64,000 nucleotides of DNA, from assembly GCA_021204025.1 (NCBI GenBank), contig JAJQAC010000086.1, positions 23,610 through 87,609 on the forward strand, read 5' to 3'. The DNA is from Clostridiales bacterium. GTDB taxonomy: Bacteria; Bacillota; Clostridia; Lachnospirales; Lachnospiraceae. Made by a program: the position numbers and the translations under genes. Below, piece by piece: positions 2,563 to 63,647 of the stretch. Every line of letters starts with the position of its first letter. The first letter of the stretch is position 1. Below the pieces are notes generated by a model. The model saw only the letters and a program-made list of their open reading frames with translations. It ran no database searches and had not been told where the DNA came from.

Positions 2563-2913
2563 TTCTCTCAATTCTCCTGTTTCCTGTGTACTTCCTTTAG
2601 ATTTTCCCGGTTTCAGCCGACTGATCGCAAGGATCAGTATTGCGACTGAAATTGCGGCCATGCATATTGCTTCCATCATCTCGTTTATCCCATGTTCTCT
2701 CCTTACCCGTCATTTTCTGCCTGCCCGCTATATTGTACCGGGTTCATGTAAAGTCCAAAAGCAGCGTAATGTAAAATTCAGGTTAAGTGGGTGCGCGAGG
2801 CGTGAAAGAAAGCAGGCGTACCGGACGGATATGTCTGCTCATAAAAAGATTGATTTCTGTGGCGGCACGAATTATACTAGGATTTGGCTTCCAAAGGTAA
2901 TGACAAACCACCC

Positions 2914-3057
2914 GTCTCTGCGAGGGAAGAATATCCTCCGAGGACCGTTCGCACTTAGGTTTTCACGTAGCGGTACTAAGTTCGCAGGAAAAGCACCCTG
3001 CTCACTAAGTGCCGACGTGAAAAATGTCCTCTGCGGATATTCTTCCCTTGCAGAGAC
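2914..3057. repeat. Structured element C, copy 1
   Basis: A 144-nt fold-back. The outer arms (from 2914 and up to 3057) pair over about 31 nt with three mismatches and include GAGGAC/GTCCTC. Inside, TTTTCACGT pairs with ACGTGAAAA and CGGTACT with AAGTGCCG, topped by an apical hairpin GCAGG/CCTGC with an AAAA loop. The core (CTTAGGTTTTCACGTAGCGG and TAAGTGCCGACGTGAAAAA) is nearly identical to copy 2 at 17458-17597, whereas the outer and apical stems are unrelated in sequence yet still pair. It fills the 2680-3109 gap upstream of the MATE gene. No coding potential is supported. Confidence 0.8.
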
Positions 3058-3109
3058 TACTTTAAGTTGCGCAAAAAGTTTTTATTTCTATATCACTCAG
3101 GTACCTATT

Positions 3110-17419: not shown

Positions 17420-17457
17420 AAAAATTATATCTCCCTTCGATTTAAATCATTCCGTCC

Positions 17458-17597
17458 GTCCATGATTTCACAACATCTTCCGAGGACCGCTCTCGCTTAG
17501 GTTTTCACGTAGCGGTACTAAACTCACCGGAAAACCATCCGGTTCGTTAAGTGCCGACGTGAAAAATGTCCTCTCCAGATGTTGTGAAATCATGGAC
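17458..17597. repeat. Structured element C, copy 2
   Basis: The arms starting at 17458 and ending at 17597 pair perfectly over 21 bp, with a further GAGGAC/GTCCTC block. The core matches copy 1 (2914-3057) over the TTTTCACGTAGCGGTACTAA and TTAAGTGCCGACGTGAAAAA parts. The apical hairpin here is ACCGG/CCGGT, against GCAGG/CCTGC in copy 1, and the outer arm sequence is entirely different. The right arm encodes the last 17 codons of the yfhO-like gene, whose TAA stop lies in the conserved core. Confidence 0.8.
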
Positions 17598-20285
17598 TAC
17601 TTCGTTGGCATCTTTCTGTGATTCTCTTTCGCCTTTACATTCTTCTATCTCACTATTCTGATCATATTCATTTTCAGGATTTTGTTCTTCTTCGCACTCA
17701 TACTCTTCTTCACTGTATTCGTTATCATCGTCCTCATACTCGATGATCTCAAAATCGTCGTCCCAGCGCTCTCTGCGTCTCCGGGCCGTCCATTCGCTGA
17801 TGCCAAATGCGGCCACAACCAGCAGTGCAATCACTGTGATCACGGCGCCAGCCTTTAATCCCCGTGGGAAATAATGGAGTTCTACGGTGTGTGTCCCGAC
17901 CCCGACCGGCACCGCGAGAAACGCGCCCAACATCCTGGACAACAGGACTTCCTCCCCGTCCACGGTCGCGGTCCATCCCTCGTCATAGGGGATGGTTGTA
18001 AATAAATAACCGCCGCCGCCCGCGTTTACCGTTCCTTTCAGGGAGGTATCGGTCCACTCTGTTACGCTCCAGGGATATCTGCCCAGTTCCTCGCAGATTG
18101 CCGAAAGTCCCTCCTGCGAGACCCGGTAGATACCGGCCTGCATCGTCACGTCTGTCTGCGTCGTCGAGAGCACGACTTCCTGCCCCGCCGGGCAAAATCC
18201 CAGACTCAGGAGGTATCCGCGATCCACATGTTCGTAATTTTTCGTCGTATCCGCGGTCATGACGCTTACATCCGTAATCTTTTTGTCCGTCACATACGCG
18301 TAATAAACGCCACTTTCCGCCGGGATAAAGGTCATGCTTTTTCCCTCTCCCCAGACGTCCTGCATCAGATAGAAAAACTGCGGTGCGCCCACGCTGTCCG
18401 CCAGAGAATTCTGCACATCCGCGGGATTTCCCAGATCGATATTCCAGCGGTTCTCCCAGCCCTCATCCACTACAAAGCCCAGAGGAAGCGTGTAAGTGTT
18501 TTCACAGAGCCAGGTTCCATTCTCCTGCGCAACCACCGTCTTTAACCCGTCTTCGTCCGGCTCCTCCGAATAGATGCCGTACCTGACATTCAGGAGCGCC
18601 TCCGTAAGAGGCGTCGTCCCTTCCGCGCCGTATGCGTTGGTCGAACTCTCGCAGCCCAGCTTTTTCATCAGAGAAGACATGTCCGCGCTCGCCATCGACG
18701 AGAAGAGTGAAATCGAGGGAAAATTCATCCATGCGCCGTCGTTCTTCGTCTTGCTGCTGATTTTCTTCATACGGAAGAATTCTTCCGACTGCTCCCGCGC
18801 CAGTCCTGCCAGCGTCCGCACATCCTCATTATCCTTCGTATAAGCGGTCCGGCTGGTCGTCGTCACGCTGGTCACAGCCATATTAACGGCCGCCTCCAGT
18901 GAGACCACAAAAAGTGCCGCCAGCAGAGCCGCGACACGACATCCCGGCCCTTTCCGGTAAAAACATATGACGGCGAGATATAACGCCAGAAAAACGATTG
19001 CCACGTAAAATACGAAAAAATGAAAATGCTCCTGAGTCACCAGCTTCTGAGCCAGGATGATAAAGATCACCGCTCCCCAGAATGCCCCGTAGATCTGCTT
19101 TTCCGAAAAATCCTCCACATGCTGACACGCCCGGCAGCAGATCACCAGCATCAGAAAAATATAGATATAGGACTGACGGCAGGGAAGGCTGTTCGGATAA
19201 TGGAAACCATGCCAGATGAAATTCGGGATATTCATCGCGAAGCTTCCCAGCAGAATCAACAGCAGCACACAATAGACGGCTTTTTCCTTTACGGATATCT
19301 TTTTCACCATCAGATACAACGTAAAAAGCAAAAATACCGCTACGCCGCAGTAGATATTCGGCCAGTGATCCAGGCCGATCTCCGACTCGACATTACCAAT
19401 ATGCCGCGCGATCATGTCGAAAATGGAAAAATACTCGGTAAAAGTTGTGGGGAACTTACTGTCCCCCGAAGCAGTCGACTGCAGTGTGTAGATCTCCGGC
19501 AGTAGCGTCACCGCCGCGAGCGCTCCGGCCAGAAGTGAAGACACGCCAAACTGCAGCCATCTCGTCACAAACTTTCTGCGGCTCATCCTGTCTTCCAGCA
19601 CCAGCAACGCGATGAAATCAAGCACCATGAAGATGCAGGTCATGATCGAGATGTAATAATTAGAAAAGATCGACAGCCCCAGAAATATCGTATATTTCAG
19701 GCACCTGCCCTCATGCACCAGTTCCTCCAGCGCCAGCACTATTAACGGGAAGAGCACAATGCAGTCCAGCCACATGATATTCCAGCTGTACGCTGCCATA
19801 TAACCGGACATCGCGTAAAAGATGCCGAAAAAAGCGACTCCTACATGATCCGTATGGCAGTGCTTTTTGAGATACCAGGCCATCGTCACACCGGCCAGGC
19901 CAGTCTTAAACACGATCAGATAGGTCATGAATTCCAGGACATAAGCCTTTGGACACAGGTATAACAGCCAGTTAAACGGACTCGCCAGATAATACGAATA
20001 CAGCGCCGCAAAATTCACTCCCATCCCGATATCCCAGCTGTAGAGCAGGCTTCCCCCTGTCCTCAGCTTGTACTGGAATTCTGAAAAAAAAGGCGCATAC
20101 TGATGATACATATCCGTCCGCAAAAAGGACTCTTCCCCAAAGGGAAAGATTCCTCTCTGCACAAATATGATAATCATCAATATAACCGGTATCACGAATG
20201 ACAGCATCAGGCCGTCGCCGGATCGGATCACTTCTTCCCATTCCACCGCTTCCCGGAAACGGCGGCCCGTTTGATTTCGCCCCAT
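17547..20285 (-). CDS. YfhO family membrane protein
   Basis: A 912-residue polytopic membrane protein with about a dozen N-terminal helices, a large extracytoplasmic domain and a final helix. It matches the YfhO family (GT-C-like fold): the DMYHQYAPFFSEF and GGSLLYSWDIGMGVNF blocks near residues 55-95 and the C-terminal YDEGWTATVDGEEV, FLAVPVGVGTHTVELHYFPRGLKAG segment are typical. In Bacillus, YfhO works in lipoteichoic-acid glycosylation. After the last helix a Glu/Asp-rich tail of about 75 residues follows. Its final 17 codons are encoded by structured element C, which appears to have replaced the original 3' end. It lies 40 nt downstream of the aminotransferase gene. Confidence 0.87.
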   Translation of the reverse strand: MGRNQTGRRFREAVEWEEVIRSGDGLMLSFVIPVILMIIIFVQRGIFPFGEESFLRTDMYHQYAPFFSEFQYKLRTGGSLLYSWDIGMGVNFAALYSYYLASPFNWLLYLCPKAYVLEFMTYLIVFKTGLAGVTMAWYLKKHCHTDHVGVAFFGIFYAMSGYMAAYSWNIMWLDCIVLFPLIVLALEELVHEGRCLKYTIFLGLSIFSNYYISIMTCIFMVLDFIALLVLEDRMSRRKFVTRWLQFGVSSLLAGALAAVTLLPEIYTLQSTASGDSKFPTTFTEYFSIFDMIARHIGNVESEIGLDHWPNIYCGVAVFLLFTLYLMVKKISVKEKAVYCVLLLILLGSFAMNIPNFIWHGFHYPNSLPCRQSYIYIFLMLVICCRACQHVEDFSEKQIYGAFWGAVIFIILAQKLVTQEHFHFFVFYVAIVFLALYLAVICFYRKGPGCRVAALLAALFVVSLEAAVNMAVTSVTTTSRTAYTKDNEDVRTLAGLAREQSEEFFRMKKISSKTKNDGAWMNFPSISLFSSMASADMSSLMKKLGCESSTNAYGAEGTTPLTEALLNVRYGIYSEEPDEDGLKTVVAQENGTWLCENTYTLPLGFVVDEGWENRWNIDLGNPADVQNSLADSVGAPQFFYLMQDVWGEGKSMTFIPAESGVYYAYVTDKKITDVSVMTADTTKNYEHVDRGYLLSLGFCPAGQEVVLSTTQTDVTMQAGIYRVSQEGLSAICEELGRYPWSVTEWTDTSLKGTVNAGGGGYLFTTIPYDEGWTATVDGEEVLLSRMLGAFLAVPVGVGTHTVELHYFPRGLKAGAVITVIALLVVAAFGISEWTARRRRERWDDDFEIIEYEDDDNEYSEEEYECEEEQNPENEYDQNSEIEECKGERESQKDANEVVHDFTTSGEDIFHVGT

Positions 20286-40239: not shown

Positions 40240-41381
40240 TCTGCCTGGGACTGATCCTGGGGGCCTGTCTCATCTGGATCCTCCAGTGCAGTCTGTACCG
40301 ACATTTCTGGCAGCGGGGATTAAACGCGACAGTTTCCTTCTGTGAAGAAGAAGTCACGGAAGGCGACACGGCCTCCCTGGACGAGGTCATCACCAACGCC
40401 AAATACCTCCCGCTCCCGGCTCTCCATGTCAAGTTTCAGATGGGAAAAGATCTGGTATTTTTAAATCAGGAAAATTCCACCATCACGGACCAGAACTACC
40501 GGAGCGATATCTTTTCCTGCATGCCCTGGCAGAAGATCATCCGACATCTGGAATTTCAATGCCGCAAGCGAGGTCTGTACGCCATCCGCCAGCTCGATCT
40601 GGTCAGTTACGATTTCCTCTGGAGCAGCCAGTTCTTTACCTCGCTCCCGGCGGAAACTTATCTGTACGTATATCCGTCCTTTGTGGATCCGGTACGCCTG
40701 GAACTCCCGCTCCGGCAGCTCTCCGGCACGATGGCGATCCAAAACGCCCTGATCCGCGATCCTTTTGACCTGCAGAATATCCGTGACTACACCCGTCACG
40801 ACCCATACCGCGACGTCAACTGGAAAGCGACCGCCCATACCGGCTCCCTCAAAGTCAACGTCCACACACCCGCCGCTTCCTGGCAGGTCACATTGATCCT
40901 GGACGGCGACGCCGACCGGCTCTGGGCTGACCTGGATCTGAAAGAAGAAACCATACGGCTCGCAGCCACGCTCACCGACCTGCTGATCGCCAGAGAGACT
41001 CCGGTATCCATCCGTTCCAACGCGCGCGACTGCTTCACACAGCATGAACTGAATCTGCGCCACGGCGCCGGAAAAGACCACCTGCGGGCAGCGCTGCAGC
41101 TCCTTGCGCGGGCGGATCTGGAGGGAACGGACCGACGCTCCGCCGAACAGCTGATTGACGAGCTCATCGAAAAACATCAGCGCGCCGACGGCCAGAATAC
41201 GACCGTTTACCTGCTCCTCTCTCCCTGCCAGCGGGAATCCCTGGCAGAGAGATACGCCGAACTCACTGCGCTCTCCCCCGGTTCCCAGTGGATTCTCCCG
41301 ATCCGCCCCGACGACGAGCTGCGCCTCGATCCGGCTGTCTATGGACTCTCCGAAGGTTTTTATCCGTGGGAGATCCGCTGA
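40236..41381 (+). CDS. DUF58 domain protein
   Basis: A 381-residue protein with an N-terminal hydrophobic helix and a C-terminal DUF58 domain. The recognition block is LQNIRDYTRHDPYRDVNWKATAHTGSL (the conserved RxYxxGD...INWKA pattern, here in a variant form). Such proteins are partners of MoxR ATPases. Four-base overlap with moxR shows coupling; the following membrane protein gene starts 93 nt downstream. Confidence 0.9.
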
Positions 41382-41474
41382 CCGTATACCAATTTCACCT
41401 GTACCACTTTGATAGATAATCCGATGAATTTATGCCAATAAAGTAACTTCACCCCACCCCCGGAGGCTCCGCCC

Positions 41475-48694: not shown

Positions 48695-48774
48695 CCATGC
48701 CACGCACCACGCTGCGGTGCTAAGCGCCAGTGGCGCTTGTTAAGCACCGACCGAAGCGGGAGCGGAGAGCATGG
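48695..48774. repeat. Structured element C-related hairpin, copy 3
   Basis: CCATGC (48695-48700) pairs with GCATGG (48769-48774). Inside, CGGTGCT pairs with AGCACCG, topped by an apical hairpin AGCGCCA/GGCGCTT. The GCGGTRCTAA and TTAAGYRCCGAC blocks match copies 1 and 2, but GGTACT/AAGTGCC has become GGTGCT/AAGCACC, a paired change. The unpaired asymmetric segment lies on the 3' side here rather than the 5' side. Confidence 0.6.
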
Positions 48775-63561: not shown

Positions 63562-63647
63562 CGGAGAGGGTGGGATTCGAACCCACGCGCCCTTGCGGAC
63601 AAACGGTTTTCAAGACCGCCTCGTTATGACCACTTCGATACCTCTCC
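63562..63647 (-). tRNA. tRNA-Ser (UGA)
   Basis: An 86-nt type II tRNA on the minus strand. Acceptor GGAGAGG pairs with CCTCTCC, the T-arm is GTGGGTTCGAATCCCAC, and the anticodon loop CTTGAAA lies in a GCGGT/ACCGT stem, giving anticodon UGA. A long variable arm is present, as expected for Ser. The 3' CCA is not encoded. Coordinates run from acceptor to discriminator base. Confidence 0.95.

Follow-up and report, generated by a model that had tools for sequence, protein, structure and literature searches.

Two hairpin copies in the window

The window, the whole stretch of 64,000 nucleotides that was analysed, contains two copies of a large hairpin element. Copy 1 is neighboured by a polyphosphate kinase gene on the minus strand and a MatE transporter gene on the plus strand. 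Copy 2 is flanked by genes for YfhO and argininosuccinate lyase, each on the minus strand, and the YfhO reading frame terminates inside it, with its stop codon at 17547. The initial annotation had located the two copies at 2914-3057 and 17458-17597, and both were recovered, with the boundaries and parts reported in Table 1, by a covariance model built from 43 copies of the same genome; since both window copies are among these 43, their bit scores are not independent of the model.

As previously noted, the two copies have a nearly identical core, enclosed by outer arms which differ in sequence, each being self-complementary (TCTCTGCAAGGGAAGAATATCC in copy 1 vs TCCATGATTTCACAACATCT in copy 2, minus strand). 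The description of the outer arms as wholly different is right for these two copies, but does not extend to the family: the arms of many copies follow a common consensus, near TCCCTGAGAGGAAA, from which copy 2 departs as an outlier. Both copies are highly structured: not one of 200 dinucleotide shuffles was as stable as copy 1, on either the minus or the plus strand (z = -12.3 for the latter), or as copy 2 on the minus strand. Copy 2 is also present at the orthologous locus of a related genome, G006, with identical outlier arms and a GCAA in place of the GAGA side loop; both G006 contigs terminate within the element.

Table 1. Coordinates of the two element copies and of their parts within the window
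Feature	Positions	Strand	Basis
Copy 1, short form, entire folded unit; RNA-like strand is the minus strand	2910..3062	-	model 179.2 bits; fold z -9.2
Copy 1, 5' tag GTAG, foot of outer stem	3057..3060	-	
Copy 1, outer stem, 5' arm	3035..3056	-	fold
Copy 1, outer stem, 3' arm	2915..2936	-	fold
Copy 1, conserved core, 5' side CGGCACTTAG	3005..3014	-	
Copy 1, apical hairpin with GA/GA internal loop	2981..3004	-	fold
Copy 1, conserved core, 3' side CTTAGTACCG	2971..2980	-	
Copy 1, side hairpin GU-GCGA-AC (GNRA loop)	2947..2954	-	fold
Copy 1, 3' foot CGGGT (family consensus CGGAC)	2910..2914	-	
Copy 2, short form, entire folded unit; insertion common to relative G006	17454..17602	-	model 161.5 bits; fold z -10.9; orthologue
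Copy 2, 5' flank GCCAACGAAGTAG, including tag GTAG at 17597-17600	17597..17609	-	
Copy 2, outer stem, 5' arm, outlier sequence	17577..17596	-	fold
Copy 2, outer stem, 3' arm	17459..17478	-	fold
Copy 2, side hairpin GC-GAGA-GC (GNRA loop; GCAA in G006)	17489..17496	-	
Copy 2, 3' foot CGGAC	17454..17458	-	

Comparison with Rfam 15, at the gathering score, returned no match to the element in the window or in 20 homologous loci, the only window matches being a glycine riboswitch and a tRNA (275-353 and 63562-63647, both on the minus strand); one stray match (E 1.7) came up when copy 1 was scanned by E-value.

A shorter relative had been proposed at 48695-48774. This region is not matched by the covariance model at E 0.001 and is part of another structured repeat, also dispersed and of the ACCGAAGCGGAGCG type; 11 distinct segments of that repeat were identified by motif search in the window and the fetched loci. 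The region was consequently rejected as a third copy, and its paired substitution (GGTACT/AAGTGCC vs GGTGCT/AAGCACC), residing in another repeat, is no evidence on the hairpin element. Yet another repeat, with CTTATCGGAAGTT-like arms, was seen in the flanks of several copies (L011, L020, L028, L039), which suggests nesting.

Size, forms and distribution of the family

The element is dispersed throughout its genome: the 20-base core, searched with up to 3 mismatches, is found 66 times in 3.04 Mb, against a single match for the reversed-pattern control. A right end could be recognised in 65 copies: 44 belong to a short form of about 150 nt, 20 to a long form, which adds a 43-nt hairpin module, and one carries an internal deletion. 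In the 20 long forms (within L044-L065) the module, endowed with a hairpin of its own, is located in the core; the short or long state differs between the own genome and G006 at 5 of 10 shared loci. The 43 aligned copies are those left after setting aside the 20 long forms, L063, which has no right end, L006 and L058.

The covariance search advocated by the initial annotation, based on these 43 copies, gave matches at E 0.001 in 26 of the 99 genomes sampled, comprising 25 of the 61 from the same family and one (G085, a 205-nt variant) of the 38 sampled from other families of the order. Within the genus, 11 of 23 other members have no match, and copy number varies widely among genus-mates. Further carriers among the matches listed are Lachnospiraceae assemblies and Clostridiaceae bacterium 1XD21-29. 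Also among the matches listed, many copies (L081, L108, L128 and others) lie within about 80 bases of contig ends, indicating that the repeat breaks assemblies. As the wrong strand of true copies itself scores up to 72 bits in the model, sequences were inspected alongside scores.

A strict regular expression for the core finds 19 of the 25 best matches, missing one near-identical to own copies, and the exact core pattern, which is strict and misses known carriers too, is present in 2 of 391 genomes of the class, the own one included. Four exact 18-base matches, in records from Pirellulaceae, Saccharimonadia, Spirochaetaceae and Enterococcus, were not confirmed by the model and were dropped. 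No match to the element was found in viral contigs by two exact-pattern scans, nor in a plasmid collection at E 1e-5. A literature search, mostly of papers available without subscription, returned no description of this hairpin family.

The predicted fold and its strand

Read on the minus strand, the unit, of about 145-205 nt and with 53 pairs in the model, starts from a 5' flank near TGCCAATAAAGTAG, followed by a variable outer stem of 20-23 bp, a 3x3 GNA/GGA internal loop, a GAGGAC/GTCCTC helix and a three-way junction. One branch of the junction is formed by TTTTCACGT/ACGTGAAAA, the core and an apical hairpin with a symmetric GA/GA internal loop; the other is a small hairpin, GY-GNRA-RC, and the unit ends with the 3' foot CGGAC. 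The core holds U.U and C.A oppositions, the position of the latter being a U-A pair in one relative (L175, from G020).

Several observations support the notion that the element folds on one strand, the minus strand, in an RNA-like manner. For all tallies of loops, mismatches and tags in other genomes, three antisense rows and identical rows were removed, reducing 120 sequences to 117 and then to 108 distinct relatives. In 104 of these 108 the minus-strand side loop is a GNRA tetraloop (GAGA 61, GGGA 16, GAAA 14, GCAA 6, GCGA 4, GGAA 2, GTAA 1), so that 7 of the 8 GNRA variants occur; the four exceptions are two AGGA loops and the two long relatives of L198. Single mismatches are biased in the same direction, G.U outnumbering A.C on the minus strand by 113 to 31 in other genomes, by 78 to 27 when three apical pairs are left out, and by 49 to 18 in the outer stem, where p is 1.9e-4 assuming independent copies; such p-values are optimistic, because copies are related, and the sequences from other genomes were aligned to a model of own copies, in which G.U is permitted and the loop is known. 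In the own copies the figures are 40 and 13, falling to 23 and 13 without the apical pairs, a weak bias which is not significant (p 0.13). Two points count against the minus strand: the folding energy of copy 1 slightly favours the plus strand (-84.8 vs -80.5 kcal/mol), and the conserved C.A opposition of the core would become a G.U pair there.

Covariation and the rewriting of the outer arms

In the own copies 98.7% of cells pair, and two-sided changes are seen at 27 of the 53 pairs; slid controls have 34-49% of cells paired and two-sided changes at 9-12 pairs. In other genomes, where all 111 distinct rows were counted, three antisense ones included, and where the alignment leans toward the model structure, the corresponding figures are 96.1% and 51 of 53 pairs, against 37-45% and 30-37 pairs in the slid controls. 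All four Watson-Crick types occur in other genomes at each of the 23 outer-stem pairs.

At ten loci shared with G006, 194 pairs of the outer stem stayed as they were, 29 were altered on both sides and 3 on one side, and 1 falls at a gap; 28 of the 29 two-sided changes lead to another Watson-Crick pair, and one to G.T. The flanks of the same loci differ at 801 of 5682 sites (about 86% identity), and independent substitution at 14% would, by our own arithmetic, predict roughly 55 one-sided and 4-5 two-sided changes. This comparison omits L031, whose partner was aligned on the wrong strand, and the locus of copy 2, where the G006 contigs end. Such an excess of two-sided over one-sided changes indicates that arm copying or conversion contributes, and it seems that arms are copied in place as well as converted from other copies: L050 retains the outer end of its arm, with the inner part replaced on both sides by a sequence absent from the other fetched copies, and at L004, L046 and L064 the inner arm of G006 is similar to that of other copies, within the subset of G006 copies compared. 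Template switching can generate changes of this type, according to the portion of PMC8794818 available.

Covariation alone is thus not proof of function or selection, and that of the outer stem overstates selection. The earlier proposal of a selected fold finds support in the GNRA loop and in covariation, but its main argument, that the stems change and keep pairing, is weakened by paired arm changes which point to copying; the case is carried instead by the GNRA loop, the strand bias and the unpaired core. We regard as unlikely, in spite of the 29 two-sided changes against 3 one-sided ones, of the L050 arm, of those resembling other copies and of the published role of template switching, that the element is a neutral palindromic repeat or MITE, its arms complementary merely through template switching and gene conversion and its fold without a role: GNRA loops, a G.U excess on one strand, an unpaired core conserved across genera and the conservation of tag and foot would all be left unexplained.

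The G006 comparison provides an unusually clean natural test of joint change of the two sides of a stem, as the divergence of the flanks was measured along with it. Whether compensatory change occurs in one step bears on the use of covariation as evidence for RNA structure in general.

Ends, pairs and gene context

The ends of the element, which had been taken to vary, are conserved, with a GYAG-like tag at the 5' side and a CGGAC-like foot at the 3' side. GTAG is found in 32 of 43 own copies and CGGAC in 28 of 43; among the 108 distinct relatives the tag is GYAG in 53 and NNAG in 87. The tag is not wholly unpaired: the model joins its final G to the foot.

Close neighbours form inverted pairs with short spacers. 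After removal of four duplicate loci, 112 matches in 84 loci yielded 28 neighbour pairs within 700 bp, of which 27 are arranged tag to tag, one faces outwards and none is in tandem, with gaps of 46-513 nt (median 51). Eighteen of the 27 tag-to-tag pairs are contributed by one genome, G023, and are copies of a single double unit of about 350 bp; the other nine come from G008, G011, G022, G034, G039, G060 and G085. The same direction is observed in two more pairs, in records L093 and L135, and in two of the own genome. The G023 double unit (L202-L221) is embedded in more extended conserved flanks that terminate in inverted ACCTTATCGTGC/GCACGATAAGGT-like repeats, and the double hairpin with its flanks is perhaps a composite mobile unit.

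Genomic localization highlights a preference for the 3' ends of genes: out of 117 flanking gene pairs, from the own genome, G006 and other genomes and based on crude gene calls, 38 are convergent, 17 divergent and 62 unidirectional (convergent vs divergent, p 0.006). The upstream gene is co-directional with the element in 40 of 56 own copies (p 0.0018).

This last bias, together with the variety of GNRA loops, the G.U excess among mismatches and the conserved unpaired core, would suit a structured RNA transcript as the functional molecule, acting as a 3'-UTR stabiliser or processing element or as a protein binder, the DNA hairpin and its dispersal being secondary. The sense bias is however weak elsewhere, co-directional genes being found for 14 of 22 elements in G006 and for 22 of 43 in other genomes; in a tag-to-tag pair at most one partner per transcript may be in sense; and the uneven copy number, with nearly half of the genus-mates having no match, is unlike that of a needed RNA. 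We consider this explanation possible, yet doubtful.

Mobility, decay and the search for a mobiliser

Sites carrying the element in one genome are empty in its relative, and the element therefore moves. The counterparts of own copies L018, L045 and L003 are empty in G006, and at window positions 41381-41474 it is G006 that has a long form (L100), the own genome being without the element. Window positions 41433-41448 read TGCCAATAAAGTAACT, the 5' flank of the element without the hairpin, where L100 carries the long form. L054 differs from G006 by a larger insert.

Decay and size reduction were also observed. L065 and L005 correspond to half-hairpin remnants in G006, and six REP-sized hairpins of the own genome (L427-L432) carry the tag and foot of the large element. 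One of them, L431, is orthologous to a full element in G006, which indicates that small forms can come from internal deletion, or the reverse. At the loci compared with G006, neither exact ends nor a constant target-site duplication emerged.

No mobilising gene was found at the Y1_Tnp and RVT_1 loci searched. Of the genomes searched for Y1_Tnp, it occurs in 9 of 13 that bear the element and in 7 of 11 genus-mates that do not, and the element is absent from 28 Y1_Tnp loci scanned at E up to 1, so that a RAYT/Y1 mobiliser was rejected. A group II intron reverse transcriptase was likewise discarded, as the one RVT_1 gene found, at a contig edge, has no element at its locus. In G033 a Y1 transposase of 270 aa (L274), RAYT-like by eye, was noticed without an element nearby.

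Interpretation

In the initial annotation the hairpin was proposed to be either a new structured RNA family or a mobile element of an unusual hairpin type. Each of these alternatives is supported, by the GNRA-bearing fold on one strand, strong covariation of pairs, the lack of any Rfam counterpart and the presence or absence of copies between close relatives, although the arguments drawn from a third copy and from variable ends fail and that from stem pairing is weakened.

The explanation we favour, and to which we give about even chances of being correct, is that of a giant, branched, REP-like, non-autonomous intergenic mobile element, whose folded single strand would be bound by a trans-acting enzyme. 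The unit would be the one-strand three-way-junction hairpin of about 150 nt, with its tag and foot, occurring singly or in tag-to-tag inverted pairs. The enzyme would recognise the folded strand via tag and core, and then move or copy the element; the strand recognised would most likely be DNA that becomes single-stranded during replication, or possibly RNA. Copies lying downstream of a gene, in sense, would also be transcribed as folded 3' UTRs. Arm complementarity could be kept partly by template-switch or conversion copying, which would rewrite both arms at once, and partly by strand-specific selection against badly paired copies. This explanation has against it that the Y1_Tnp and RVT_1 loci yielded no mobilising gene, that neither exact ends nor a constant target-site duplication emerged, and that the choice of strand is weakened by the folding energy of copy 1, by the C.A opposition of the core and by the own-genome mismatches outside the apical pairs.

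In a quite unlikely variant, the folded RNA itself would be the mobile form: a protein-free, SINE-like bacterial element, reintegrated via a trans enzyme recognising the GNRA junction. Snap-back copying during such a cycle would rewrite both outer arms at once and, if true, would account for locus-specific arms around a universal core.

Whichever its mechanism, the family adds a large, polymorphic, structured repeat to Lachnospiraceae.

Comparison with known systems

In IS200/IS605-type elements the transposase recognises a hairpin on one DNA strand, and the hairpins are two and subterminal. The mobile element favoured here would share with them the notion of one-strand hairpin recognition by a transposase, but features a single full-length hairpin and has no Y1 gene in or beside the scanned elements.

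The closest kind is that of the GTAG-tagged REPs and REPINs. According to the parts of PMC3733652 and PMC3116915 available, these resemble the element in being intergenic palindromes scattered through the genome, in carrying a GYAG-like tag at one end, although that of the element is partly paired in the model, in forming inverted pairs separated by short spacers, in having stem sub-families whose changes compensate each other and in preferring gene 3' ends. REP units are stem-loops of 20-40 bp with a stem of 6-13 bp and an unpaired GTAG tag, degenerate as GYAG/GYRG; the element is instead about 150 nt long, with a three-way junction, a GNRA side hairpin and a conserved inner core, and only the six REP-sized forms of the own genome come into that size range. 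The REPtron, a RAYT gene flanked by the repeat, is a feature of REPs which the element lacks in the 28 Y1_Tnp loci. Failing both REP size and RAYT association, the element is not classed as a REP; neither Clostridi nor Firmicutes is mentioned in PMC3733652.

That the family is nonetheless a classical GTAG REP/REPIN one, moved by a RAYT transposase and with unusually long hairpins, is in our opinion very unlikely. The GYAG-like tag, the inverted pairs, the location at gene 3' ends and the REP-sized forms would be as expected; units several times too large, a Y1_Tnp distribution uncorrelated with that of the element, Y1 loci devoid of copies and the sole RAYT-like protein seen, that of G033, are not, nor is the genome of G019, assembled in 2 contigs and 95% complete, with 4 element matches and no Y1_Tnp match.

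Intergenic repeat families are also found in another Firmicute group, the bcr1-bcr18 repeats of the Bacillus cereus group, which are similar by description, with no shared sequence claimed: in the portion of PMC3446304 available, bcr1-bcr3 are MITE-like, bcr10 and bcr18 have a conserved secondary structure, and about half of the copies are transcribed in UTRs or operons. Finally, long palindromic candidate RNAs from gut bacteria were described among the structured RNA candidates of the human microbiome; the three palindromic examples given in the accessible part of PMC8040213 are from Bacteroidetes or of unstated phylum, and the present hairpin family may sit, unnamed, among its 3161 candidates.
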